Positions 5,473 to 43,114 of a stretch of 64,000 nucleotides of DNA are shown here, piece after piece. Within the stretch, counting starts at the first letter, position 1. Each line of letters opens with the position of its first letter. The notes under the pieces were generated by a model that saw nothing but the letters and a program-made list of their open reading frames with translations, made no database searches and had not been told where the DNA came from. Made by a program: the position numbers and the translations under genes. The DNA is from Serinicoccus marinus DSM 15273 (lineage in GTDB: Bacteria; Actinomycetota; Actinomycetes; Actinomycetales; Dermatophilaceae): positions 248,001 through 312,000 of the forward strand of contig NZ_CP043808.1 in assembly GCF_008386315.1 (NCBI RefSeq). The letters run 5' to 3'.

Positions 5473-5525
5473 GTGGCAGTAGCGGTCTGTCCAATTGGGA
5501 GAACCGGGGGTGGTGTAATCACGTC

Positions 5526-6428
5526 ATGCGCATCTTCTTCACCGGGGGCAGCGGCAAGGCCGGCAAGCACGTCGCGACCTACCTGGCCGAGCAGGGTCAT
5601 CAGGTCACCAACGCCGACCTCGTCCCCCTGGAGCATCCGGACGTCGCCGACCTGCGGGTCGACCTCACCGACGCCGGTGAGACCTACTCGGCGCTGGCGG
5701 GGGCGGCGACGATGGACGAGCTGGAGCTGGAGAAGAAGCCTGCCTATGACGCGGTCGTCCACTTCGCGGCGGTGCCGGCGATCCTGATCGCCTCCGATGC
5801 CCGCACCTACGCGACGAACGTGCTGAGCACCTACAACGTGCTGGAGGCCGCGACACGGCTGGGTGTCCGCAAGATCGTGTTCGCCTCCTCGGAGACGACC
5901 TACGGGATCTGCTTCGCTCAGGGCGAGCGGCGACCGCAGTACGTACCGGTCGACGAGGACCACCCGACGGTGCCGGAGGACTCCTACGCCATGTCGAAGG
6001 TGGCCAACGAGGTGACGGCCCGCTCCTTCCAGGCTCGCACCGGTGCCGACGTGTACGGCCTGCGCATCAACAACGTCATCGAGCCGCACGAGTACGCCGA
6101 GATGTTCCCCGACTTCCTCGACGACCCGTCGCTGAGGCGGCGCAACATCTTCGCTTACATCGACACCCGCGACCTCGGCCAGATGGTGCAGCGGTGTCTG
6201 GAGGTCGATGGGCTCGGCTACGAGGTCTTCAACGTCGCCAACGCGGACATGTCCGTCGCCCTGACCACCCAGGAGGTCCGGGAGCGCTTCTACGACGGGG
6301 TTGAACTGAAGCGTGAGATGGGCCCGGACGAGACCTTCTACTCCATCGACAGGGCCCGCGAGCTGCTTGGATACGAGCCGCAGCACTCGTGGCGCGACGT
6401 CCTGTCAGATCCTCGGCCAGAGGCCTGA
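5526..6428 (+). CDS. NAD-dependent epimerase/dehydratase (extended SDR)
   Basis: This 300-residue extended short-chain dehydrogenase starts MRIFFTGGSGKAG, the Rossmann NAD(P) motif at residues 7-13. VVHFAAVPA, FASSETTYG and the catalytic pair in SYAMSKVANE (YxxxK) follow. Such enzymes epimerise or oxidise sugar nucleotides such as UDP-glucose. The exact substrate is unclear and no sugar-biosynthesis operon is present. It ends the core-like left segment; the accessory island begins just downstream. Confidence 0.8.
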   Translation: MRIFFTGGSGKAGKHVATYLAEQGHQVTNADLVPLEHPDVADLRVDLTDAGETYSALAGAATMDELELEKKPAYDAVVHFAAVPAILIASDARTYATNVLSTYNVLEAATRLGVRKIVFASSETTYGICFAQGERRPQYVPVDEDHPTVPEDSYAMSKVANEVTARSFQARTGADVYGLRINNVIEPHEYAEMFPDFLDDPSLRRRNIFAYIDTRDLGQMVQRCLEVDGLGYEVFNVANADMSVALTTQEVRERFYDGVELKREMGPDETFYSIDRARELLGYEPQHSWRDVLSDPRPEA

Positions 6429-6483
6429 CCCAGGCGCACCGACCGCGACGGTATGCCCCCCCGGCCCGGCGTCGACTCGCTCG

Positions 6484-6879
6484 ATGCGGGATGAGGGCGA
6501 CGTCCGGTGCATCTACGATGCGCATAGGCGGGGCGACGAACAGCGGATTATCCAGGCCTTCTGTGACTTCATGAGTGCACGGGGGTGGTCGGTCTCGCGG
6601 GAGGTCGACCACGTCGACGTGGTGGCTGAGAAGGATGGACTGAAGGTGCTGGCGGAGGCCAAGGGGCGCACAGCTGCGATCGGTTTGGACGTTGACACGA
6701 TGTTCGGTCAGCTATTGCGACGCATGCCGTCGACAGGGCGGAGCGAGGGGATGCGATTTGCGGTCGTGGTGCCGACAGCTGCTGTGAGCGCAGTCCGACG
6801 CGTCCCTGCCTGGGTGCTTGAGGAACTGCAGATCGACGTATACGTCGTCGGCGACGACGGGTCAGTCGCCGCTCGCTAG
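6484..6879 (+). CDS. Small restriction-endonuclease-like protein
   Basis: This 131-residue protein carries the PD-(D/E)xK nuclease signature. Asp45 lies in VDHVDVVAEK and is followed by a beta turn and LAEAKGR, with Glu58 and Lys60 as the E-x-K pair. An N-terminal helix (RIIQAFCDFMSARG) precedes the core, as in Mrr/restriction-like nucleases. No methyltransferase or specificity subunit is adjacent, so a solitary nuclease or repair role is more likely than a classical restriction system. It is the first gene of the island and is followed by a GCGGCAG word at about 6891. Confidence 0.5.
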   Translation: MRDEGDVRCIYDAHRRGDEQRIIQAFCDFMSARGWSVSREVDHVDVVAEKDGLKVLAEAKGRTAAIGLDVDTMFGQLLRRMPSTGRSEGMRFAVVVPTAAVSAVRRVPAWVLEELQIDVYVVGDDGSVAAR

Positions 6880-6906
6880 CGTCACTTGAGGCGGCAGTGG
6901 CCTGCG

Positions 6907-7482
6907 TCATTGATGATCGTTAGACCGGGCCGCGACAGCGAACCCGCCGGTCAGGAGCAATGCCACGCCGGTGAGTGCGCACACCCTGCCCGCGCCGGCA
7001 GTGCTCATGTCGTCTCCGTCTGCTGTGGCCCGGTCGGTGCTGTAGATGGCGGCGAGGCCGAGCGCGAGAACGATCGGGAGCAGGATGTAGAGAAGACTCT
7101 GGTAGAGCCAGGCGTACGGGACGAAGTGCACTGCTCCGGCGAGGGAGAAGAAGAGCGGAACCAGGGTGTAGCGACCTCGCACCGTCAGCACGATCAGCAG
7201 CGGCAGCACGAGGAGCTGAGACACGGAGATCAGGATCCCTAGCCGGCTGATGAGCTCGCCACCTGGTCTTGCCTCGAACATCCCTAGCCAGGCCGAGATG
7301 CCGAGTGCGACGGGTAGGGCAACCATCCCTTGGAACAGGGTGGCCGTCACTGCCCACTTGGGCTCGGTGGCGCGCCACATGGCGGCGCAGACCAGCCAGG
7401 TCGTGCCGTACGCGAGGAGGAAGACCGCCCCCTGGTAGTTGCTTCGTGCGAGCTCAACCAGGGCGTCCTCGAGGCCAGACAT
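6907..7482 (-). CDS. Multi-pass membrane protein, DUF7010-like
   Basis: This 191-residue protein has five or six predicted membrane helices (for example AVFLLAYGTTWLVCAAMW, LVLPLLIVLTV, SLLYILLPIVLALGLAAIY and GVALLLTGGFAVAA). It begins MSGLEDALVELARSNYQGAVFL, similar to small integral membrane proteins annotated DUF7010. That assignment is tentative and the function is unknown. The start is ATG 7482. The copy of the island repeat at 7526-7570 lies just upstream. Confidence 0.5.
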   Translation of the reverse strand: MSGLEDALVELARSNYQGAVFLLAYGTTWLVCAAMWRATEPKWAVTATLFQGMVALPVALGISAWLGMFEARPGGELISRLGILISVSQLLVLPLLIVLTVRGRYTLVPLFFSLAGAVHFVPYAWLYQSLLYILLPIVLALGLAAIYSTDRATADGDDMSTAGAGRVCALTGVALLLTGGFAVAARSNDHQ

Positions 7483-7525
7483 GGCACGAGTATTGCCGAA
7501 CAGGGGAGGGGGGTGGGCGTCCAGC

Positions 7526-7570
7526 GCGGCAGTAGCGTGCGGACCACGCTCAGTGCGGCATGACCGGATG
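7526..7570. repeat. Island repeat, copy 1 (45 bp)
   Basis: This 45-base element starts GCGGCAGTAGCGTGCGG, contains the hairpin AGCGTG-CGGAC-CACGCT, repeats GCGGCA at 7555 and ends CGGATG. Nearly identical 45-base copies lie at 11153-11197 and 14813-14857. It sits between two single-gene units of opposite orientation. Confidence 0.75.
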
Positions 7571-7707
7571 GTTGATGGGGCGTTGCGAGGTTGCCGCGAC
7601 GGTGGTGTCGCACAGTCAGTGAAGAGGCGGCGGCGCGCGAAGCGTGCCTCGCCTCTGCTGCCATAAAGCTGTTGGAGACGAGAAGGACCTGCGGCACCAT
7701 CTGGCCC

Positions 7708-8412
7708 GTGGACTTCGACGACTTCGTACGCGCCAGCAACCAAGGGGTTGACCCAGCTGTGTACGAGATCGAGAACGCAGCGATCGATCGGCATGGTGTG
7801 CTCTGGGCTGCCTTGAAAGACCAGGCACCCTGGCGAGGCCGCGTCCTGCTCGACCTGGGTTGCGGCTCAGGGTTCTGGCTACCCCGGTACCGCGACGCGG
7901 GAGAGGTCATCGGGGTGGAGCCGGACGTCAATCTTCTTGACCTCGCACGCGCTCGCCGGGCACCCGCGCGAGTGCTGCACGGCTCGGCCGAACACATCCC
8001 GCTGCCCGACGGCTCCGTCGATGTTGTTCACGCCCGGTTCGCCTACTTCTTCCCCCACCCGAGTTTCGATCCCACACCCGGACTTGTCGAAGTCTCCAGG
8101 GTCCTCCGACCAGGTGGCCGCCTTGTGGTGATCGACAATGACACCGAGGCAGGAGAGTTTGCCGCACTCCTGAAGGCTAGCCCTTGGGCAGCGACTCAAG
8201 GCCGGGACACTTACGCCCGTGACTGGTGGGCTGACAAAGGCGCCAGGACGACTCCCGTCATGAGCAGCTGGGAGTTTGATACCCGCACGGACCTCGAGGC
8301 AGTTCTGCGCTTGGAGTTTCCAGAGGCGCTCGCAGAGACATGGCTAGGCAGGCACCCGGACCGAACGGCTCTGTCCTACGGAAACCTCATACACACATGG
8401 CCGCCTGACTGA
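7708..8412 (+). CDS. Class I SAM-dependent methyltransferase
   Basis: This 234-residue protein is a Methyltransf_11-type fold. LLDLGCGSGFW is motif I for SAM, GVEPD the acidic loop, DGSVDVVHARFAYFF motif II, and LRPGGRLVVIDND motif III. The substrate cannot be inferred. I place the start at GTG 7708 (MDFDDFVRAS), which begins the recognisable fold; upstream in-frame sequence looks non-coding. It is one of two unrelated methyltransferases in this island. Confidence 0.7.
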   Translation: MDFDDFVRASNQGVDPAVYEIENAAIDRHGVLWAALKDQAPWRGRVLLDLGCGSGFWLPRYRDAGEVIGVEPDVNLLDLARARRAPARVLHGSAEHIPLPDGSVDVVHARFAYFFPHPSFDPTPGLVEVSRVLRPGGRLVVIDNDTEAGEFAALLKASPWAATQGRDTYARDWWADKGARTTPVMSSWEFDTRTDLEAVLRLEFPEALAETWLGRHPDRTALSYGNLIHTWPPD

Positions 8413-8441
8413 GTGCCAACCGGAGGGGGCGGTGGGTGCGC

Positions 8442-8945
8442 TTACCTCATGGCAGCGCGCAGCATCTTGAGCTGGTTGATCTCGGCGAGGTTCTTGGCGA
8501 GCTCGAAGTTGAGCCAGGCGGCGATCAGACCGAGGGGTTGGGGCTCTGGCATGGCCCACGGCACCAGGCGATCGAGGTTGTCTGTGGCTAGGACCTGGTC
8601 CCACCGTTCCTTCAGGCGCTGGATCTCGTCTGTGCCGCCGCTCCACTTGTGCTCCAGCGGTTCAATACGCTCATCTCCGTTGACGAGGCTCAAGGTGTCG
8701 GTCCAGCACCACTCGATGTGCCACAGGACCCACCCCATCGTGGCTGCCATCGGCGGATCGTTCTCCTCGCCCGGCCAGTCAGCTGACCAACCTTTGCTCG
8801 TCCGGTGGACCGTGTAGCGCTTGACCCCTCCCGGTGACCACAACGCAGCTTCCTCGTCGATCTGGCCGATGATGAGGTCGGCTGCGAAGCTCCATTCGAT
8901 ATCGAGCTGCCGCCGGAGGGCGGTCCTGGCGTCGAAGTCAGACAT
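8442..8945 (-). CDS. DinB-family protein
   Basis: This 167-residue, four-helix-bundle-like protein has the DinB/YfiT pattern: LRRQLDIEWSFAADLI, then GWVLWHIEWCWTDTL with a metal-binding-type histidine, then a C-terminal helix ending in a conserved-looking NFELAKNLAEINQLK. DinB-like proteins are often bacillithiol or mycothiol S-transferases. In an actinobacterium mycothiol is the likely thiol, but this is inference. It is a single-gene unit with no obvious partner. Confidence 0.6.
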   Translation of the reverse strand: MSDFDARTALRRQLDIEWSFAADLIIGQIDEEAALWSPGGVKRYTVHRTSKGWSADWPGEENDPPMAATMGWVLWHIEWCWTDTLSLVNGDERIEPLEHKWSGGTDEIQRLKERWDQVLATDNLDRLVPWAMPEPQPLGLIAAWLNFELAKNLAEINQLKMLRAAMR

Positions 8946-9106
8946 GCTGCGATCCAACCATCGCCCGAGGTGGAGGTGGTCAGGGGTGCTCCTGCCGGAG
9001 CCTTGTCCTGGACAAACGGTGACCTGTCGCGCAGCAGTCTTCAGCGTGCTTCGACGACCGGCGCCCCGGGTTGAGCGTCGACTTGTCGGTGCTGGGTGGT
9101 ACACCC

Positions 9107-9583
9107 ATGCCCATGACTGACGTGACCGTCCTGCCGCCGTTCCAGGTGTCCCAGTCGGCTGTGCAGGCCATTGAAGCTCTCGGTGGCGCGGTGCGAGTCG
9201 ACCTTGAGGATGGTGGTTGTTGTGGAACGACCTACGTCTTCGACTTGGTGGACCCACAATCAGAGGCCGTCGCCGAGGACGTCCGGTACGGCTGCCCTGG
9301 AGCGTGGCTGTTCGTGTCAGCCACCGCAGCCGCGGTTCTCGATGGTGCCCTGCTCGACTACGGGGCGACCCTCAAGCCGCCACGCTTCCGCATTCCCCGC
9401 AACCCCAACGTTGACCATGTCTGCCCTTGCCGGCGTTCTTTCGGCAACGTGTGGCCCGGACCCCGTCAACCGACATGCCGCGCATACCTGCCTATGCCCT
9501 GGGACGCCGAGTTCCAGCCGCCTCAAGCCTGGCGTCGACAGACCGGGTGGACAGCGCCGCACGAGCCGCCCGAGGAGAAGTAG
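9107..9583 (+). CDS. HesB/IscA-like (A-type Fe-S carrier) protein with C-terminal extension
   Basis: This 158-residue protein resembles A-type iron-sulfur carriers. VSQSAVQAIEAL begins the fold, the first cysteine pair lies in LEDGGCCGTTY, and the usual NPN-C-x-C-x-x-SF signature appears as NPNVDHVCPCRRSFG. About 45 extra residues follow, rich in Pro and Trp, which standard IscA proteins lack. Either ATG 9107 or 9113 could be the start; GGTGG upstream suits 9107. No isc or suf genes are near. Confidence 0.6.
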   Translation: MPMTDVTVLPPFQVSQSAVQAIEALGGAVRVDLEDGGCCGTTYVFDLVDPQSEAVAEDVRYGCPGAWLFVSATAAAVLDGALLDYGATLKPPRFRIPRNPNVDHVCPCRRSFGNVWPGPRQPTCRAYLPMPWDAEFQPPQAWRRQTGWTAPHEPPEEK

Positions 9584-9683
9584 GGACCCCGACCAGGCGA
9601 CATCGACGCAAGCGGAACGAACGATCGAACCGCGGCAGGCGCGTCCTTTACCGGCTGCTCCGGGGGGGCTATAGGTTGCGTGG

Positions 9684-10256
9684 GTGACTCAGGAGTTGTG
9701 GGACGGTGAGGCCGCACGTTTCGATGAGGAGCCGGACCATGGACTGGCCGATCCTCGGGTTCGGGCGGCGTGGCGAGAGCTTCTTCTGGAGGTGCTTCCC
9801 TCGGCGCCGGCTCGGGTGGCCGATCTGGGGTGTGGCGCCGGCACTATGACTCGGCTGCTCACCGATGAGGGGTACGGCGTCGATGGCTTGGACTTCTCGC
9901 CGGAGATGATTCGCCTGGCGCGGGCCAAGGTGCCAGAGGCTGAGTTCGTGGTGGGTGATGCGGCAGATCCCGCCCTTGAGACGAGCAGCTACGACGTGGT
10001 GTTGAGCCGACATGTTCTGTGGGCGATGCCGGACCCGGCTGGGGCGTTGGCGCGCTGGGTTAATCTGCTGGTGCCGGGTGGAGTCGTGGTGCTGGTCGAG
10101 GGGAACTGGTCCACCGGTGCAGGCTTGACTGCCGCTGAGTGTGAGCGCCTGGTGCGGGCAGTCCGTCACGACGTCAGGGTGCGGCCCCTATTCGATCGTG
10201 TCTACTGGGGCAAAGCGATCGAGGATGAGCGGTACCTCATCGTCAGCACTCGCTGA
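9684..10256 (+). CDS. Class I SAM-dependent methyltransferase
   Basis: This 190-residue methyltransferase has VADLGCGAGTMTRLL as motif I, GLDFSPEMIRLARAK as the acidic-loop region, YDVVLSRHVLWAMPD as motif II and LVPGGVVVLVEGNW as motif III. It begins with GTG 9684 (MTQELWDGEAARFDEE). The opening WDxxAxxFD resembles small-molecule methyltransferases. It is not closely similar to the methyltransferase at 7708. The substrate is unknown. Confidence 0.7.
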   Translation: MTQELWDGEAARFDEEPDHGLADPRVRAAWRELLLEVLPSAPARVADLGCGAGTMTRLLTDEGYGVDGLDFSPEMIRLARAKVPEAEFVVGDAADPALETSSYDVVLSRHVLWAMPDPAGALARWVNLLVPGGVVVLVEGNWSTGAGLTAAECERLVRAVRHDVRVRPLFDRVYWGKAIEDERYLIVSTR

Positions 10257-10388
10257 CCGGTGCGGACAGGCGAGGACCGCCAAGAGCTGTGGTTCGGTAC
10301 GACCGGCTCGCGGCAGAGTTGGATGTCTGGTTGGGCCATGCGGCGCTGGCCGAACGCGGTTACGCAGGGGCTGGACCCCGGGCACGGT

Positions 10389-10435
10389 TGACAAGTGCAC
10401 TTGACAGGCTGGCGAGGTGACAAGTACACATGACA
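10389..10435 (+). promoter_or_regulatory. Tandem operator upstream of the membrane protein/XRE pair
   Basis: Two 18-base direct repeats, TGACAAGTGCACTTGACA at 10389-10406 and TGACAAGTACACATGACA at 10418-10435, start 29 bases apart. The first contains the perfect 12-base palindrome CAAGTGCACTTG. The second ends one base before the ATG at 10437. The position suits autoregulation by the XRE protein encoded downstream, by blocking both promoter and translation start. TTGACA words could also serve as -35 elements. Binding is inferred. Confidence 0.55.
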
Positions 10436-10436
10436 C

Positions 10437-10841
10437 ATGAAGACGTCGCACATCTGGCTGGTGGTGGGGGCCCTCGCGCTCGGGGGCCTGGTTCTACAGG
10501 GCTGGGGGAATGCCGAGGCCGACCACCCGTTTCAGGATCCGCTGGGTCTCCTCGGGATGTTGCTGGTGATCCTGCCACTGACTCTGGCGCTGAACGTCAC
10601 GATGCGCCGGCGCCGGGACGCCTCGGGTGAGAGCTCGCCGGACAGCGTGGAGTCCCGGGCCGCGCAGCAGGCCCGCAGCCAGGCGTACGTTGATGCCGTC
10701 ATGCTTGGAGCGGTTCTCTTCCTCGTTCTGGCGATCGTTGCGGACACGCTCGCGGCCCTGACAGGGATGGCTTTCCTGGCGCTCGCGGTCGGTTCCTTCT
10801 GGGTCCGCTATCGCCTGGCCCTGCGAGCCCTGGGTGCCTGA
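10437..10841 (+). CDS. Small membrane protein, partner of XRE regulator
   Basis: This 134-residue protein has four predicted membrane helices: IWLVVGALALGGLVL, LGLLGMLLVILPLTLAL, VDAVMLGAVLFLVLAIV and LTGMAFLALAVGSFW. A charged cytoplasmic loop (RRRRDASGESSP) separates the pairs. It overlaps the following XRE gene by eight bases, so the two are translated together. Such membrane protein plus small XRE pairs recur in Actinobacteria and Firmicutes, and their role is unclear. Confidence 0.6.
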   Translation: MKTSHIWLVVGALALGGLVLQGWGNAEADHPFQDPLGLLGMLLVILPLTLALNVTMRRRRDASGESSPDSVESRAAQQARSQAYVDAVMLGAVLFLVLAIVADTLAALTGMAFLALAVGSFWVRYRLALRALGA

Positions 10842-11037
10842 GACGGTCAACGGCCTTCGACCGCTCAGAGTGTCCCGTGGCTGGAGCCAAGGTCGGTTAG
10901 CCAAGGAGCTGGGCGTCTCCCGCCAGACGATCAACGCCATCGAGACCGGGCGCTTTGACCCCAGCCTCCCGCTGGCGATGCGGTTGGCACACACTTTCGG
11001 ACGCGCGGTCGAGGACGTCTTCATCCTCAAGCAGTAG
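10834..11037 (+). CDS. Minimal XRE-family transcriptional regulator
   Basis: This 67-residue protein is a single helix-turn-helix: LRVSRGWSQGRLAKELGVSRQTINAIETGRFDPSL is the classic Cro/C1 pattern, with a short tail LAHTFGRAVEDVFIL. It starts with GTG 10834 inside the end of the membrane protein gene. It probably dimerises and represses its own operon through the repeats at 10389-10435. No signal-sensing domain is present, so the membrane partner may be the sensor or effector. Confidence 0.75.
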   Translation: MPETVNGLRPLRVSRGWSQGRLAKELGVSRQTINAIETGRFDPSLPLAMRLAHTFGRAVEDVFILKQ

Positions 11038-11118
11038 AAGGCCGCTACCGCCTCGCCAAACGGCAGGCTGGGCCTTGCGTGGCGTCACACACGCCCCCGT
11101 GATCCTGGCGAGCGACCC

Positions 11119-11197
11119 GCGGCAAAGTCGGACGAGCGTAACCGTCCTCCACGCGGCAGTAGCGTGCGGACCACGCTCCATGCGGCAGATCCGGATG
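11119..11197. repeat. Island repeat, composite copy 2
   Basis: Three GCGGCA words lie in tandem at 11119, 11153 and 11182. The first unit contains the inverted repeat GGACG...CGTCC. The second contains AGCGTG-CGGAC-CACGCT. The third ends as GCGGCAGATCCGGATG. The second and third units match copies at 7526-7570 and 14813-14857. The first unit also occurs at 14419. The array lies directly downstream of a minus-strand mazF gene. Confidence 0.75.
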
Positions 11198-11218
11198 TCC
11201 GCAGTGGTCTCTCGTCCG

Positions 11219-11545
11219 CTACCTAGCTAGGCCGAGGAAAGCCATGAGGGCGCGTTCGACCTCCACGAGACTTTCGGGCGCCAGGCGGCCAATGCGGGTA
11301 CCGACGTTCTCACGGCGGACTGTGGTGACCTTGTCGATCATGACCTGGCTGTCGTGCTGCAGGCCGGTGAAATCATCGGCGGCGACGCGTACGCGAAGCA
11401 GAGGGGCATCTACCAGCGTCGTCGTCAGGGGCGCCACGGTCACCGAGGCAGTGCCCTCGAAGAGGTCGTCCTGCACGATCAGTGCGGGCCTCGGCTTGGA
11501 GGCGTAGACACCCCCGGCGACGGTCCACAGCTCGCCGCGCCTCAC
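11219..11545 (-). CDS. mazF: MazF/PemK-family endoribonuclease toxin, copy A
   Basis: This 108-residue protein opens MRRGELWTVAGG, then KPRPALIVQDD, the conserved SH3-like barrel signature of MazF. LQHDSQVMIDKVTTV carries the usual serine/threonine region near the active site, and GRLAPESLVEVERAL is the C-terminal helix. MazF toxins cleave mRNA or tRNA at short sequences and stall growth when the antitoxin is lost. The start overlaps the mazE stop by four bases. A nearly identical gene lies at 14879-15205. Confidence 0.85.
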   Translation of the reverse strand: MRRGELWTVAGGVYASKPRPALIVQDDLFEGTASVTVAPLTTTLVDAPLLRVRVAADDFTGLQHDSQVMIDKVTTVRRENVGTRIGRLAPESLVEVERALMAFLGLAR

Positions 11546-11748
11546 TCCTCGTCCCAGGGGGCGGTGACGGCTTCGACGAACTCCTGGTCATCGGACTGCT
11601 CGTCCGCCCTGGCGACCAGGGCCGCCTGACGTTCGGCCTCCTGTGCGAAGCGCTCGCTACGCACGTCCGGCACCCAGATCTGCACGGGTCGAAGTCCGCG
11701 TGCGCGCATCCTGCGCCGGTACTCGCTGACTCGATGCTTCACCGTCAT
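11542..11748 (-). CDS. mazE: MazE-type antitoxin (DUF3018), copy A
   Basis: This 68-residue antitoxin begins MTVKHRVSEYRRRMRARG and then PVQIWVPDVRSERFAQEA, the DUF3018 antitoxin pattern. The acidic end (SDDQEFVEAV, PWDEE) would wrap MazF. ATG 11748 is chosen because it begins the conserved fold and follows the palindrome at 11757-11770; the frame remains open upstream without family resemblance. Copy B differs by one residue (Glu to Lys before QSDD). Confidence 0.8.
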   Translation of the reverse strand: MTVKHRVSEYRRRMRARGLRPVQIWVPDVRSERFAQEAERQAALVARADEQSDDQEFVEAVTAPWDEE

Positions 11749-11756
11749 GCCTACCA

Positions 11757-11770
11757 CGTTACATGTAACG
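11757..11770. promoter_or_regulatory. Palindromic operator of mazEF copy A
   Basis: CGTTACATGTAACG is a perfect 14-base palindrome that ends eight bases before the mazE start codon. MazE-MazF complexes bind such palindromes to repress their own operon, so this is the likely operator. The same sequence is kept in copy B at 15417-15430. Confidence 0.7.
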
Positions 11771-11933
11771 ACAGTGCAGCGGAAGGCGGCTACGTCCCTA
11801 ACAGCGCACCAAGATTTGGGTCCCCACCTCACCCGCCGAGCGACCAGCGGCATGTGCGGATGCCATGGTGACGCGTACGGAGGCCAAGGCGCATTGCAGA
11901 GAAGAGGGCTTGGGGGCCCGCGTTCTAATTCGT

Positions 11934-12986
11934 TTACCTAGTGATCGGATTCCCGTCGCGCCACTGTCGCTCCGCTCGGCGCTTGGCGCTCCAACGAGAG
12001 AAATTCCCTGACATGGCAGCCCCGAAGCCATCAATCGCGGCCTGCAGGTCTTGCCGCCCGCCGGCCTCATCGGAGCGAACCCCTCCGATCAGGTGGCAGG
12101 CGGTTCGACCCCAGTGATTGCTGCCATGGGCATCCACAAGCTCAGCGAGCCGGGAGATGTGCTGGTTCGCCTCGTCTGCGCTTCCGCATGCCCAAGGTTC
12201 TTGCTGGAGGGAGCGCAGACGCGAGAGGTGCAAGGCGATCGAGTCGACCCCCGCGGCTGCCCGCACCTCCAGAGACGGCTCCTGCATCTGTGCCCCGATG
12301 AGCAATGCCGAGCTCAGAAGCACGTCGATCCCCTTCTCGAGGAGTTTCTCAACAAACTTGCCGGCCGCGGCGCCGGCGATCGCTCCTGCTGGGGTGCCCG
12401 TCACGGCCACCCCGGTCGCGGCGCCGGCGACGACCGGCATGAGTTCGCGGGTGCCCCTCAATACTGTCCGGGCGGCCGTCCTGACGATGGCTCCCCGTTC
12501 AGCGGGGTCGGGGGCTCGTTCCGCCACCTCGATCTGGCCTCGGGCGCGCCACAGCAGCACCGTGAGGTCTGACTGGGCCCGTTGAACGGCAGAGGCGAGT
12601 TCAGTTTCGGTCAGCCTGCCGCGGTCGAGGGCAGACAGCGCGCTCTTGGCGGCGTCGATGAGCTCGGTGGCCGGAGGTGGCGGCGGCACGGTGTAGCCGA
12701 CCAGATCGAACATGGCGGCCAGGTCGGATCGGTTCAGGCTCTGCAGGGCTTGTAGCTGCGCCCCGGCGTCATCACCGGTCGTATCCACCCGTAAGGACAC
12801 CCAAAAGTCGTCGTCATGCAGCAGGCTGCGCAGACCCTCGAGCAGGTGCGAGACCTCGGCTTGCAACAACCGGAGGGCCTGCTCTTCCAGCGCGTGGTCG
12901 CGCTGTTCCTGTGCCCAGTTGCCGTAGATACCCTCGGCTCCGGCCAGTTCGAGAGCCGCGCTCGCGGACCGCTCGCGCGCGGCCAA
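11934..12986 (-). pseudogene. Unknown protein cut from its start codon by an IS3 element
   Basis: The frame encodes about 350 residues and matches no family I recognise. The N-terminal half is acidic and helical (EEQALRLLQAEVSHLLEGLRS). About residues 175-225 form an Ala/Gly-rich segment (MPVVAGAATGVAVTGTPAGAI, then AGAAAGKFVEKLL) that could insert in a membrane. The C-terminus is soluble. The frame opens with TTG only two bases from the IS end at 12988. Beyond the IS, an ATG (14359-14361) with AGGTGA at proper spacing continues in frame across the junction, so the native start was probably there. Confidence 0.6.
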
Positions 12987-13040
12987 GTGAACCGTCCCGG
13001 GTTTGGTGGAGGGTCTTGATCTCTACGGGAGAGTGGAGTC

Positions 13041-13364
13041 ATGCCTGCACCGAGGAAATACAGCGACGAGCTGCGTGAGCGTGCGATCCGCGCGGTGAAC
13101 GAGACGATCCGGGAGAGTCCGGGGTTGCCGGTGAAGCGTGCTTGCGCCCAGGTGGGTGAGCAGCTGGGCATCCCGGGTGCCACGTTGCGGAACTGGTTCC
13201 GCGGGCCCGCACCGGCGGCCGGGTCGACTGCGACCGCGACCGATCCACAGGAGCGGCTGGTGCAGCTGGAGAAGGAGAACCGGGAGTTGCGCCGGGCGAA
13301 CGCGATCCTGCGGTCGGCCTCAGCTTTTTTCGCGGCGGAGCTCGACCGCCCCACGAGTCGTTGA
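13041..13364 (+). CDS. IS3-family transposase OrfA
   Basis: This 107-residue protein has an N-terminal helix-turn-helix (RKYSDELRERAIRAVNE, then GIPGATLRNWFRG) for terminal repeat binding and a C-terminal leucine zipper (LVQLEKENRELRRANAIL). A slippery heptamer TTTTTTC at 13325-13331 lies in frame as T TTT TTC, so a -1 shift would fuse OrfA to OrfB, the active transposase form. Confidence 0.9.
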   Translation: MPAPRKYSDELRERAIRAVNETIRESPGLPVKRACAQVGEQLGIPGATLRNWFRGPAPAAGSTATATDPQERLVQLEKENRELRRANAILRSASAFFAAELDRPTSR

Positions 13365-14338
13365 TCGCCTACATCGACGAGCACAAGGAGTCCTTCGGGG
13401 TCGAGCCGATCTGCACGGTCCTGTCCGAGGCCGGCGCGAAGATCGCCCCGAGCACCTACTACGCAGCCACGTCGCGTGCCCCCTCGAACCGGGCACTGGC
13501 CGACGCGGCCCTCGATGAGCGGATCCAGTCGACCAACGACGCGAACTACGAGGTGTACGGGGTGAAGAAGATGTGGAAGGTGCTCAACCGGCAACAGGTC
13601 CTGGACGAGCACGGGAACCCCACCGGGCGCACCTATCCACCGGTGGCGCGGTGCACCGTGGCCAGGCGGATGAAGGCCCTGGGCCTGGTCGGCGCGGTCG
13701 CCGGCGACCACAAGGCGCCCCGGACCACGGTGCCGGCCAAGGACGGCCACCCGGCCGACCAGCTCAACCGGGACTTCACCGCCGCGGCACCGGATGACCG
13801 GTGGGTGGCCGACATCACCTACGTGCCGACCTGGGCCGGGTTCGTCTACGTCGCGTTCGTGATGGACCTGTTCTCCCGCCGGATCGTCGGCTGGCGCGTG
13901 GCTGCCTCGCTGCACACCGACCTGGCCCTGGACGCCCTGGAGCACGCGATCTGGCAGCGCCACCGCGACGGACGGGACCTGACCGGCCTGGTCCACCACG
14001 CCGACCGCGGCGTGCAATACCGAGCCATCCGGTACACCGAGCGCCTCGAAGAACTCGGCATCGTCGCCTCCGTCGGATCCAAGGGCGACAGCTACGACAA
14101 TGCCGCCGCCGAGGCGCTCAACCGCGTCTTCAAGACCGAACTCATCCGACGGCGCGGCCCCTGGAAAACGCTCGAGCACGTCGAGCTCGAAGTCCTTCGG
14201 TGGGTCGACTGGTACAACACGACCCGCCCGCACTCATGGTGCGACTACCTCGCACCCGCAGCGTACGAACACGACCACTACGCTGCCCCCAACCCTTCGA
14301 CGGCGACCGCCGACGAAGCACACACGACTCTCCACTGA
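13361..14338 (+). CDS. IS3-family transposase OrfB (DDE integrase domain)
   Basis: This 325-residue rve-type DDE transposase contains RWVADITYVPTWAGFVY with the first catalytic Asp, HHADRGVQYRAIRY with the second, and GDSYDNAAAEALNRVFKTE with the Glu. The N-terminal region (DEHKESFGVEPICTVL) is the HTH_21-like domain of IS3 OrfB. It lies in the -1 frame relative to OrfA and is intact, so the element may still be active. Confidence 0.9.
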   Translation: MIAYIDEHKESFGVEPICTVLSEAGAKIAPSTYYAATSRAPSNRALADAALDERIQSTNDANYEVYGVKKMWKVLNRQQVLDEHGNPTGRTYPPVARCTVARRMKALGLVGAVAGDHKAPRTTVPAKDGHPADQLNRDFTAAAPDDRWVADITYVPTWAGFVYVAFVMDLFSRRIVGWRVAASLHTDLALDALEHAIWQRHRDGRDLTGLVHHADRGVQYRAIRYTERLEELGIVASVGSKGDSYDNAAAEALNRVFKTELIRRRGPWKTLEHVELEVLRWVDWYNTTRPHSWCDYLAPAAYEHDHYAAPNPSTATADEAHTTLH

Positions 14339-14358
14339 ACCCGGGGCGGTTCACATGC

Positions 14359-14375
14359 CATGGCTAGCTTCACCT
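14359..14375 (-). promoter_or_regulatory. Displaced ribosome binding site and start codon of the IS-split gene
   Basis: On the minus strand AGGTGA (14370-14375) is followed eight bases later by ATG (14359-14361). Joined across the IS, ATG-GCA-TGC runs straight into the TTG-GCC-GCG codons at 12986, in frame with the unknown gene. This decides the native start and shows the IS entered about the third codon. Confidence 0.55.
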
Positions 14376-14418
14376 AGTAGCGCGCACGAGATCAAGGCAG
14401 AAAGTCGAAACTCTCCGC

Positions 14419-14468
14419 GCGGCAAAGTCGGACGAGCGTAGCCGTCCTCCGCGCGGCAGATCCGGATG
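14419..14468. repeat. Island repeat, copy 3
   Basis: This 50-base element begins GCGGCAAAGTCGGACGAGCG like the first unit at 11119, with an inverted repeat GGACG...CGTCC, and ends GCGGCAGATCCGGATG like the other copies. It is a mosaic of two unit types. It lies between the IS3 flank and a small minus-strand gene. Confidence 0.7.
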
Positions 14469-14504
14469 CCCGCTCCCGCGTCACTTGCGGCGGAGAGACG
14501 CTGA

Positions 14505-14765
14505 TTAGTCGGTGCTGTTGAGGTCCGGAGCCAAGCTCTGCCTCGCGGTGTCGATGAACCTGGTCAAGAGGTCCAGAGGAAGGTCGGCGGCTCGTAGAGC
14601 GGAGAACGTGAATGTGCCATGGGCATCCGAGTAGAAGACTTCTAGGGATGGTCCCTGCCCGGATGGCTGATCCAGGTCGGTCAGTTCGAGTGCCATGCCG
14701 TCCCGGATCACGTCGGATGCCATGAGCACCTCAAACCGTCGCCCCTCGGCTTCCCAAACGTTCAC
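14505..14765 (-). CDS. Hypothetical small protein
   Basis: This 86-residue protein of unknown function reads VNVWEAEGRRFEVLMASDV, then a beta-rich middle (SLEVFYSDAHGTFTFSALRA) and a C-terminal helix (LPLDLLTRFIDTARQ). It has no signal or membrane segment. GTG 14765 is preferred because the sequence further upstream runs into the repeat at 14813. It is a single-gene unit lying between two copies of the island repeat. Confidence 0.5.
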   Translation of the reverse strand: MNVWEAEGRRFEVLMASDVIRDGMALELTDLDQPSGQGPSLEVFYSDAHGTFTFSALRAADLPLDLLTRFIDTARQSLAPDLNSTD

Positions 14766-14812
14766 CCGGCAAGTATGCCCGACCCGGAGTGGCGATCCTC
14801 GGCGGTCGACTC

Positions 14813-14857
14813 GCGGCAGTAGCGTGCGGACCACGCTCAGTGCGGCAGATCCGGATG
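14813..14857. repeat. Island repeat, copy 4 (45 bp)
   Basis: This 45-base copy starts GCGGCAGTAGCGTGCGG and ends GCGGCAGATCCGGATG. It has the same hairpin as copies 1 and 2 and forms the left end of the second mazEF duplication. Confidence 0.75.
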
Positions 14858-14878
14858 TCCGCAGTGGTCTCTCGTCCG

Positions 14879-15205
14879 CTACCTAGCCAGGCCGAGAAAA
14901 GCCATGAGGGCGCGTTCGACCTCCACGAGACTTTCGGGCGCCAGGCGGCCAATGCGGGTACCGACGTTCTCGCGGCGGACTGTGGTGACCTTGTCGATCA
15001 TGACCTGGCTGTCGTGCTGCAGGCCGGTGAAATCATCGGCGGCGACGCGTACGCGAAGCAGAGGGGCATCTACCAGCGTCGTCGTCAGGGGCGCCACGGT
15101 CACCGAGGCAGTGCCCTCGAAGAGGTCGTCCTGCACGATCAGTGCGGGCCTCGGCTTGGAGGCGTAGACACCCCCGGCGACGGTCCACAGCTCGCCGCGC
15201 CTCAC
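14879..15205 (-). CDS. mazF: MazF/PemK-family endoribonuclease toxin, copy B
   Basis: This 108-residue toxin is identical in sequence to copy A at 11219-11545, including KPRPALIVQDD and LQHDSQVMIDKVTTV. Base differences are silent. The start overlaps the mazE copy B stop by four bases. Two identical toxins imply that either antitoxin can neutralise both, so loss of one copy may carry no cost. Confidence 0.85.
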   Translation of the reverse strand: MRRGELWTVAGGVYASKPRPALIVQDDLFEGTASVTVAPLTTTLVDAPLLRVRVAADDFTGLQHDSQVMIDKVTTVRRENVGTRIGRLAPESLVEVERALMAFLGLAR

Positions 15206-15408
15206 TCCTCGTCCCAGGGGGCGGTGACGGCTTCGACGAACTCCTGGTCATCGGACTGCTTGTCCGCCCTGGCGACCAGGGCCGCCTGACGTTCGGCCTC
15301 CTGTGCGAAGCGCTCGCTACGCACGTCCGGCACCCAGATCTGCACGGGTCGAAGTCCGCGTGCGCGCATCCTGCGCCGGTACTCGCTGACTCGATGCTTC
15401 ACCGTCAT
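15202..15408 (-). CDS. mazE: MazE-type antitoxin (DUF3018), copy B
   Basis: This 68-residue antitoxin is the same as copy A except for one change, Lys instead of Glu just before QSDD. The change lies in the probable toxin-binding half. The start at ATG 15408 is followed upstream by the same 14-base palindrome. Expression of the two operons is therefore likely to be cross-regulated. Confidence 0.8.
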   Translation of the reverse strand: MTVKHRVSEYRRRMRARGLRPVQIWVPDVRSERFAQEAERQAALVARADKQSDDQEFVEAVTAPWDEE

Positions 15409-15416
15409 GCCTACCA

Positions 15417-15430
15417 CGTTACATGTAACG
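15417..15430. promoter_or_regulatory. Palindromic operator of mazEF copy B
   Basis: CGTTACATGTAACG, the same perfect palindrome as at 11757-11770, lies just upstream of the mazE copy B start. Confidence 0.7.
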
Positions 15431-15506
15431 ACAGTGCAGCGGAAGGCGGCTACGTCCCTAACAGCGCACCAAGATTTGGGTCCCCACCTCACCCGCCGAG
15501 CGACCA

Positions 15507-15795
15507 GCGGCAGGAGCGGATGTCGCCGGTCGGCGCCGCCGTGGATGTCACGGCGAGGACCGTGTCGGTCTGACTGGTCGTTGCCGCGCTGTTACGTCAG
15601 ACGCTCGGGGGATTGAAGTGGACCAGGGGGGTGGCGTCATCGAGGGAGTTCGGAGGCGCATTACCGGTCACAGTTCCTGCCGGCGCTTTGGGTGACGGCG
15701 AGTACAGTCCCGTTCAACAGTCCGAGGACGCAGATATCCGGGGGTCTCGCCAGTGCTGGCGGCGACGCACCGAGGAGGTAGGAGGGTCGGATGTG
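15507..15795. other. Spacer with a short island repeat
   Basis: A short repeat form GCGGCAGGAGCGGATG lies at 15507-15522. A matching short form, GCGGCATGTGCGGATG, is at 11847-11862. The rest up to 15795 shows no convincing gene: an in-frame extension of the next gene exists but lacks protein-like character. GAGGAGG-type sequence at about 15770-15786 is the likely ribosome binding site of the following gene. Confidence 0.45.
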
Positions 15796-16473
15796 ATGCG
15801 AGGCATCAACTGGAAGGGAGCGGCGGTGTTCTTCGTTTTGGCTGCCGTCCTCTATGTCGCGGGCATGCTCATGTTCGGGAGGCCGCTCCTCATGTCGATC
15901 CTGGGAGGGGTGGTCTGGGCCGCCTTCTTCGTTCCCGCCATGTTGTGGCTTGGCATGAAGATGAATCAGCGCATGATCTCCCGCCGCCCAGCGACCGCAG
16001 GTTCGGACACCCCCGAACCGGAAGTCGACGGGGACGAAACCGTGATCTCGCACGACCACGGGACGCCGATTGTGGTGGGTCGACGCGAGGGTGGTTTTTA
16101 CCGACGAAGCGTCCTGGTGGCCGGTGTTGAGCCGGCGGCTGCGGCGGCTTACCTGGAGAAAAGCAGCTCGTGGCGTGTACATGGCTCTAGAGCCGCTGAG
16201 GCCGTGACCCTGCGGCGCGGTTCACGCGCGTGGCTGCGAATCATGGGTGCGTGGGAATGGGGCCCGAAGTCTCGCGACCGGTGGCCCTACCTGGCACACC
16301 TGGCCCGTCATTCCGAGACCGGCGCCACTGAGGTCACCGTCACAGACAACTTCGGCAGGTGGATCAACCTGCACTCCTCTGGCAGCTCCGCGCTGGGCCA
16401 CGTAGCCGTATACGGTGACGAACTACTGGACCACATAAAGGACTCACTAGAGTCTGTGGGCCGAAGCACGTGA
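15796..16473 (+). CDS. Unknown membrane-anchored protein
   Basis: This 225-residue protein has two N-terminal membrane helices (AAVFFVLAAVLYVAGMLMF and SILGGVVWAAFFVPAMLWL) followed by a cytoplasmic basic stretch (KMNQRMISRRP) and a soluble C-terminal domain of about 150 residues. I recognise no family. ATG 15796 is chosen because purine-rich GAGGAGGTAGGAGG precedes it and the hydrophobic helix follows directly. Confidence 0.5.
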   Translation: MRGINWKGAAVFFVLAAVLYVAGMLMFGRPLLMSILGGVVWAAFFVPAMLWLGMKMNQRMISRRPATAGSDTPEPEVDGDETVISHDHGTPIVVGRREGGFYRRSVLVAGVEPAAAAAYLEKSSSWRVHGSRAAEAVTLRRGSRAWLRIMGAWEWGPKSRDRWPYLAHLARHSETGATEVTVTDNFGRWINLHSSGSSALGHVAVYGDELLDHIKDSLESVGRST

Positions 16474-16581
16474 GCCTGTTGACGACCGCGCCGCCACTAC
16501 CTGCGCGCGGCAGATGAGTGCGCGGGTGCTCGGTCGCTGGGGGTCCGGAACTCACCTCGGGTGCCGTGTTGGGTCGGCCGG

Positions 16582-42890: not shown

Positions 42891-43114
42891 GGCGCCTCGT
42901 CAAGCAGGTCGAGGACCTCGCCGATGTTGCGCACGTCGACCTTGAGGCCGAGCTTCGTCGAGTGGTGCTGGTAGGGGGACGGCGGCTGGTCGGGTGCGGA
43001 CATGCCGCGACGGGCGAGTGAGTTCACCGCCTCGCTCGGGCCCATGCCACGCTCGCGCCGCAACCGGTCGACCTCCGCTGCGACATCATCGCTCAACGTG
43101 ATCGTCGTCCTCAT
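42887..43114 (-). CDS. vapB: Ribbon-helix-helix antitoxin
   Basis: This 75-residue antitoxin begins MRTTITLSDDVAAEVDRLRR and has GPSEAVNSLARRGM, a CopG-like ribbon-helix-helix. The C-terminal half (KLGLKVDVRNIGEVLDLL) would bind the toxin. ATG 43114 is close to an ATCATGAT-like word that may be part of the operator. Confidence 0.8.
   Translation of the reverse strand: MRTTITLSDDVAAEVDRLRRERGMGPSEAVNSLARRGMSAPDQPPSPYQHHSTKLGLKVDVRNIGEVLDLLDEAP

Follow-up and report, generated by a model that had tools for sequence, protein, structure and literature searches.

Gene cassettes between dif-like sites, and a linked Xer-like recombinase, in Serinicoccus and related Actinobacteria

Introduction

Integrons are the best-known means by which bacteria stockpile and shuffle single genes. 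In Acinetobacter, dif (pdif) modules consist, according to a published description, of toxin-antitoxin and adaptive genes bounded by 11-6-11 sites (PMC6449649). Here, we analysed a 64-kb stretch of the Serinicoccus marinus DSM 15273 chromosome (the window, G000:C1:248001-312000; host genome of 3.42 Mb in one contig) that carries an array of small gene units separated by a repeated sequence with a GCGGCA core. Very likely, the units are gene cassettes that are rearranged through conservative site-specific recombination, with a Xer-like recombinase of 309 amino acids (aa) as the likely, putatively active enzyme. The features on which this reading is built are the architecture of the site, one main orientation per array, exact unit boundaries, shuffled neighbours, near-identity of units between species, and linkage to a recombinase clade across genera.

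The IntegronFinder 2.0 survey reports no complete integrons in Actinobacteria (PMC9024848), and in the excerpted text of a tyrosine recombinase classification no simple subgroup is described as a cassette group of this kind (PMC8138268). A literature search, with all bioRxiv preprints and most subscription journals outside its reach, returned no description of such a cassette system. Genomes and loci are designated below by our own G and L handles, which include G018 for Serinicoccus sediminis, G028 for S. chungangensis, G010 for Ornithinimicrobium faecis, and G329 for Knoellia sp. Soil729.

A 26-bp site repeated in one orientation

Sites were scored with a matrix built from 44 junctions and covering only GCGGCA and the next 12 bases, the left-flank bases being unused in site picking. 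In the genus survey set (58 loci, 960 kb, from the GTDB genus Ornithinimicrobium/Serinicoccus, most of them fetched for their repeats), 424 sites scored at least 14, against 14 in the reversed-sequence control, and 421 of the 424 shared the main strand of their own locus. A looser 16-base pattern gave 63 forward and 21 reverse matches over the whole G000 genome (control, 33 and 23). A DNA similarity search detected the repeat in 27 of 31 genus genomes, with one weak match each in G009 and G015, and in none of 27 other genomes.

In the window, 13 sites had an arm score of at least 7, all of them on the + strand and between 7526 and 16507. The repeat copies named in a sequence-only reading of this DNA (7526, 11119-11197, 11847, 14419, 14813, and 15507) are all present, with GCGGCA starting at each of these positions and at 11153. 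The longer copies contain a second GCGGCA, at 7555, 11182, 14453, and 14842, and the sole further GCGGCA of the window with an arm score above 0 lies at 43008 (1.8). Two weaker forms had also been proposed: the one near 16503 corresponds to a good site at 16507 (19.6 bits with the position-specific scoring matrix, PSSM), but the one near 6891 is degenerate (12.8 bits, arm score below 0). An acceptable site at 10310 had been overlooked. A search for repeated 6-mers with conserved flanks proved too noisy to serve as evidence. Its top hit was GCGGCA or the complement in L053, L059, L278, and the window stretch, and GCGGGA in L249, but L250 and L282 were missed, and coding triplets gave higher scores in control loci.

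The site measures 26 bp and comprises two inverted arms of about 10 bp, CRYNCK-NNNN and NNNN-MGKRYG, flanking the asymmetric 6-bp spacer GCGGCA. Counted outward from the spacer, the predominant bases in both arms are A or C at position 5, G at 6, R at 8, Y at 9, and G at 10. When the left arms of 374 distinct sites were scored on the right-arm profile, the mean was 0.01 in the exact inverted register, and ranged from -5.7 to -13.6 at eight other shifts (shuffled, -8.6); with sites that follow a mini-unit (see below) excluded, it was -1.7 versus -6.3 to -13.4 (276 sites). Inverted arms around a 6-8 bp spacer, as in tyrosine recombinase core-site systems, are present, and in its layout the 26-bp site matches a dif-type core site for such an enzyme. 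The constant CGGATG end once ascribed to the repeat did not hold, the true end being MGKRYG, with AGTGCG at 16507.

Full copies with internal hairpins do exist, but these hairpins turned out to arise where neighbouring sites meet, each right arm facing the left arm of the following site across 2-13 bases. Such gene-free mini-units of two facing arms (28-39 bp) measured 28, 29, 34, or 39 bp in 138 of 141 cases. In G002, twenty mini-units of 28 bp stand in tandem between two cassettes (L057:8636-9195; G002:C1:874635-875194), and runs of this type may grow and shrink.

Units behave as exact cassettes

Loci were cut at the sites, and the resulting 243 units of 120-4000 bp were compared pairwise. 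Among 111 homologous pairs, similarity reached the left site in 72, the right site in 57, both in 48, and neither in 30. Boundary comparisons with an ungapped end identity below 0.6 were dropped (23/72 left and 29/57 right), as was one on each side with a shared neighbour. At the 48 remaining left ends, all with differing neighbours, identity was 0.19-0.46 upstream, rose to 0.60 and 0.69 at the conserved arm positions, and reached 0.92-1.00 over GCGGCA, a value partly built in because sites were selected on their spacer. At the 27 right ends with differing neighbours, the last ten bases were 0.85-0.96 identical, and positions beyond the arm at most 0.33. In a wider set, the right-hand neighbour was non-homologous in 104 of 105 homologous pairs. 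The window itself offers an example in two copies of a MazF-like cassette (11182-11846 and 14842-15506) that are 99.4% identical from GCGGCA to GCGGCA and have different right-hand neighbours.

Of 103 interspecies pairs for which recA could be compared, 45 exceeded recA identity; nine were at least 99% identical in species whose recA genes are 85-94% identical. One cassette shared by G006 and G028 is 99.9% identical over 913 bp (recA, 85.3%), and a 575-bp cassette of G002 is 100% identical across two arrays. The simplest account of these near-identical cassettes is that they moved recently, both inside species and from one species to another. Cassettes that end precisely at the site and vary in their neighbours, a trait by which integrons are recognised, were found, and the proposal of a site-specific insertion array was supported by flank alignment, with units shared or duplicated, neighbours that differ, and boundaries exactly at GCGGCA. 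The opposite pattern, repeats lying mainly in conserved core intergenic regions without any link to gene gain or loss, was not observed. In five complete genomes, arrays face both with and against replication, as assessed by hand with the origin assumed opposite dif.

These data also bear on a more ordinary explanation, in which the repeats are dispersed hairpins (repetitive extragenic palindrome- or miniature inverted-repeat transposable element-like, or terminators) and the reshuffling is due to homologous recombination or other elements. Tandem mini-units and hairpins are indeed present, and insertion-sequence-like genes, recognised by eye, recur in the arrays. Yet sharp boundaries at a 6-bp core with differing neighbours are unexpected from homologous recombination over 6 bp, the sites keep to one direction (421/424), the arms are symmetrical in exact register, and no Rfam family reached its gathering threshold in the three arrays scanned. 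Dispersed repeats are thus a very unlikely explanation. An IS110-like transposase, also recognised by eye, occurs nine times in seven array loci (e.g., L059:11744-13045, L076:14322-15632, and L077:6019-7329), perhaps because it targets the sites.

A tyrosine recombinase linked to the arrays

The largest protein cluster of the arrays consists of tyrosine recombinases (10 in eight loci), five of which belong to one 309-aa Xer-like kind. In G000, this protein is encoded at 1.416 Mb, inside a second array; the sequence-only reading had seen no integrase in the window. Whole-genome protein searches (E<=1e-60) detected the 309-aa recombinase in 15 of 31 genus genomes. Copies in other genera and families showed 71-80% identity, with one G155 copy split in two (66-71%). 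Of 7997 candidates scored in a database search, 6086 qualified as relatives at E<=1e-50; no match was found on plasmids at 1e-60, and viral contigs gave two weak relatives (28-33%).

The linkage set comprised 37 recombinase loci, family fragments in G031 and G530 being excluded. At least two sites on one strand lay within 8 kb in 29 of the 37, and sites near recombinase loci were antiparallel to the gene in 205 cases and parallel in 6. Among more distant relatives, sites occurred at 2 of 12 loci (L291 and L292, about 60% identity, broken or partial), and no GCGGCA or GCGGGA site was found near those at 45-56%. In all 15 loci examined of the 37 (13 from the genus and 2 from outside), a site stands on either side of the recombinase gene, and the units so bounded measure 1.65-2.7 kb. 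The distance between the start codon of the gene and the next spacer is 50-51 bp in 6 of the 15, namely L076 (7263-7314), L090, L254, L255, L346, and L347; the promoter may thus lie in the neighbouring cassette, and recombinase expression may depend on the adjoining unit. About 700 bp (697-702) separate the recombinase stop from the next site in L076 (8241-8940), with equivalents in L090, L255, L257, L258, L346, and L347.

In a phylogenetic tree that included 12 of the 37 recombinases, these 12 grouped as a single clade (100/99) separate from the host Xer proteins. Two scanned copies scored 124-125 bits for XerC/XerD (cut-offs 330-335) and 59-61 bits for the integron-integrase profile TIGR02249 (cut-off 265); with scores so far below the cut-offs, assignment to XerC, XerD, or integron integrase was rejected. 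The best match among solved structures was XerD. The R-K-H-R-H-Y catalytic set of tyrosine recombinases is present, with R161, K187, H251, R254, H277, and Y286 invariant in 30 aligned sequences and matching the XerD active site. K187 and H251 are 64 residues apart, a spacing that, in terms of integron integrase (IntI) numbering, presumably leaves little room for the IntI insertion. The structure model had a mean predicted local distance difference test (pLDDT) score of 68.9, falling below 50 over residues 252-309, which is too low for a fold search.

Spacer variants and the host dif

In another host family (f15; G155, G169, and G197, plus one site each in G049 and G127), the arms are preserved and the spacer is GCGGGA, in some cases GCGCCA. 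An arms-only scan allowing any spacer revealed a spacer repeated at least twice in 12 of 20 clade loci outside the genus, GCGGCA or GCGGGA in 11 and GCGCCA in L248, and a repeated spacer in 0 of 12 distant-relative and 0 of 4 control loci. Outside the genus, L277 and L281 have sites on both strands. These sequences fit a protein that would read the arms, the spacer only needing to match that of its partner.

The resemblance to dif raises the possibility that the sites are substrates of the host's own XerC and XerD, in the manner of Acinetobacter dif modules, with the array recombinase a passenger. Searches with a dif consensus found one dif-like sequence per genome in five genomes. That of G000 is ACGCCGATAA-GCGACA-TTATGTAAAG (G000:C1:1666601-1666621; L328), whose spacer is one base off GCGGCA in a site of similar geometry; its XerC arm has CGG at positions 5-7, as do many cassette arms. 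Near-identical cassettes are, moreover, shared by genomes without the array recombinase. However, the XerD arm (TTATGT) has G and T at positions 5 and 6, where right arms carry G in 2% and T in none, and left arms G in 17% and T in 6%. The dif spacers vary over five species (GCGACA, GCCACA, GGTACA, GGCACA, and GTCACA), and the cassette spacer stays GCGGCA in all five. Finally, no site lies within 8 kb of the two G000 loci presumed to encode XerC and XerD, in contrast to the dedicated clade (29/37). Action by host Xer proteins thus appears unlikely. Two sites (L259:3251 and L259:4435) combine the spacer GCGACA with cassette-type right arms, and cassette sites and dif may share an ancestor.

Content of the arrays

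The features of the window array are collected in Table 1. The gene at 9113-9583 has a relative (81%) that forms a separate 596-bp cassette in L057. In the first MazF-like cassette, a second gene (11542 upward, - strand) overlaps the toxin start and is probably the partner of the toxin. The open reading frame (ORF) pair at 13041-14338 was recognised as IS3-like by eye only.

Table 1. Recombination sites, mini-units, and gene units of the array (window coordinates)
Feature	Position	Strand	Score or basis
Recombination site, first of the array, weak left arm	7516..7541, spacer 7526-7531	+	arm score 7.3
Mini-unit type A, 29 bp, two facing arms, gene-free	7526..7554	+	
Recombination site	7545..7570, spacer 7555-7560	+	arm score 16.3
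Worn multi-gene unit, degenerate site near 9632 (9.4 bits)	7555..10309	.	Pfam
Methyltransferase, in unit 7555..10309	7702-8412	+	
DinB-like gene, in unit 7555..10309	8442-8945	-	
Gene, in unit 7555..10309	9113-9583	+	
Methyltransferase, in unit 7555..10309	9684-10256	+	
Recombination site	10300..10325, spacer 10310-10315	+	arm score 7.1
Cassette: hypothetical gene 10437-10841 (+), HTH_3 gene 10834-11037 (+)	10310..11118	.	Pfam
Recombination site	11109..11134, spacer 11119-11124	+	arm score 11.2
Mini-unit type B, 34 bp	11119..11152	+	
Recombination site	11143..11168, spacer 11153-11158	+	arm score 17.6
Mini-unit type A, 29 bp	11153..11181	+	
Recombination site	11172..11197, spacer 11182-11187	+	arm score 19.1
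665-bp cassette, PemK/MazF-like toxin 11219-11545 (-)	11182..11846	.	Pfam PF02452
Recombination site	11837..11862, spacer 11847-11852	+	arm score 15.1
Unit: 350-aa ORF 11934-12986 (-), insertion-sequence-like ORF pair 13041-14338 (+)	11847..14418	.	
Recombination site	14409..14434, spacer 14419-14424	+	arm score 9.8
Mini-unit type B, 34 bp	14419..14452	+	
Recombination site	14443..14468, spacer 14453-14458	+	arm score 15.7
360-bp cassette, small ORF (listed 14505-14834, -)	14453..14812	.	
Recombination site	14803..14828, spacer 14813-14818	+	arm score 10.8
Mini-unit type A, 29 bp	14813..14841	+	
Recombination site	14832..14857, spacer 14842-14847	+	arm score 18.4
665-bp MazF-like cassette, second copy	14842..15506	.	
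Recombination site	15497..15522, spacer 15507-15512	+	arm score 17.4
1000-bp cassette, one gene ending 16473 (+)	15507..16506	.	
Recombination site, last found	16497..16522, spacer 16507-16512	+	arm score 13.7; PSSM 19.6

Cassettes had a median size of 821 bp (284 units). Content was assessed on 75 array proteins: 75 were drawn at random, four of these (insertion-sequence-like or repeat ORFs) were removed, leaving 71, and four proteins of the window were added. Pfam assigned 45 families, among which acetyltransferases were the commonest (up to 6/75), followed by methyltransferases (4, half of them from the window set) and DinB (2, one of them from that set); a defence-library scan of the same 75 proteins gave five families with up to four members. 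The mixed gene orientation noticed at the outset was confirmed, with 174 of 356 cassette ORFs (simple ORF caller) on the strand of the site and 182 opposite.

Cassette size resembles that of chromosomal integrons, as do the content (acetyltransferases, methyltransferases, a toxin gene, and unknowns) and the one main site orientation, which might suggest a true integron or an integrase-less attC cluster. Several features speak against it: the core is a 26-bp palindrome with no AAC/GTT boxes in the consensus of 374 distinct sites (a comparison by consensus and not by an attC model), the recombinase reaches at best 61 bits with TIGR02249, genes point both ways, and the recombinase gene is itself flanked by cassette sites on both sides in each of the 15 loci inspected. 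A true integron or an integrase-less attC cluster is therefore extremely improbable.

An epimerase gene just upstream of the array (window 5500-6436) is conserved in several Serinicoccus/Ornithinimicrobium genomes, and sites of the same orientation occur 0.7-8 kb downstream of it in L132, L133 (a single weak site), L134, L137, and L138, hinting at a preferred chromosomal place.

Proposed mechanism and its weak points

In the proposed cassette system, each unit starts with GCGGCA and a right arm and ends with a left arm, so that two abutting units complete a 26-bp site in which the 6-bp spacer stands between a left and a right arm. A tyrosine recombinase would bind the inverted arms and exchange strands in or beside the spacer, on a substrate expected to be double-stranded DNA. 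With the same asymmetric GCGGCA throughout, excision, insertion, and reordering would keep to one direction, whatever the strand of the gene. The presumed catalyst is the 309-aa recombinase which, usually encoded between two sites itself, would act on the window array in trans from 1.416 Mb. Mini-units of 28-39 bp may multiply by unequal exchange or slippage.

Several observations weigh against this reading, in which activity is inferred from sequence. Unit similarity does not always run end to end (30 of 111 pairs reach neither end), and some boundaries in the window are worn (7555-10309). Tandem mini-units require another route, 28-bp units being implausible as double-stranded circles. With regard to the enzyme, several of the 15 genus copies are broken or fragments, 8 of the 37 recombinase loci have fewer than two nearby sites, parallel sites outnumber antiparallel ones in L281, and sites also lie near 2 of 16 unrelated tyrosine recombinases of the same genomes (L334 and L339). 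Finally, the array-rich genomes G006, assembled as one complete contig, and G001 have no recombinase copy at E<=1e-60. G006 nevertheless has cassettes that are 99.6-99.9% identical to counterparts in G001, G004, and G028, so either the recombinase cassette is gained and lost over time, or a further enzyme can use these sites too. L334 (G006:C1:3891000-3910999) encodes an unrelated 420-aa tyrosine recombinase with sites 3-4 kb away on both sides, which may reflect chance or an alternative enzyme.

We further consider it reasonably likely that Actinobacteria own an independently evolved counterpart of integrons, widespread and based on double-strand dif-like sites, in which the recombinase is itself a mobile cassette and the spacer (GCGGCA, GCGGGA, or GCGCCA) sets exchange groups. 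The cassette system was seen across one genus and, accompanied by recombinases of the clade, in other genera and families within the class. If this proves true, the integron gap in Actinobacteria would be filled by an analogous system made of different parts. It would also open up a new source of small accessory genes, offer a recombinase whose site code is easy to read (arms for the protein, spacer for the choice of partner), and make it possible to ask directly whether cassette systems arose more than once.

Comparison with known systems

With Xer proteins and chromosomal dif, the system shares protein size, catalytic residues, and site geometry; it differs in its separate recombinase clade (about 125 bits versus 330-335) and in having many sites per genome instead of one. 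Acinetobacter dif modules likewise have sites of 11-6-11 geometry bounding toxin and accessory genes. Their sites are, however, inversely oriented and composed of XerC and XerD half-sites, whereas those described here are direct (421/424), with arms that are alike, a dedicated recombinase clade linked to them, and an arm logo that a XerD-type TTATGT misfits.

Integrons differ from the present arrays in their folded attC sites with AAC/GTT boxes (RYYYAAC...GTTRRRY), in contrast to the short dif-like palindromic core. The recombinase found here is not IntI by profile and usually lies inside a cassette, genes occur in both orientations, and no attI was recognised, no search having been aimed at it. 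The sequence-only reading had compared the repeats with attC in spirit, which is apt for the apparent behaviour of the array but not for its parts, the site looking like a dif-type core and the recombinase not being an integron integrase by profile. The two have in common arrays of small, mostly one-gene units, one main direct-repeat orientation, a tyrosine recombinase, recombinase-less arrays (clusters of attC sites lacking integron integrases, CALIN, in integrons), similar accessory genes, and units common to several species.

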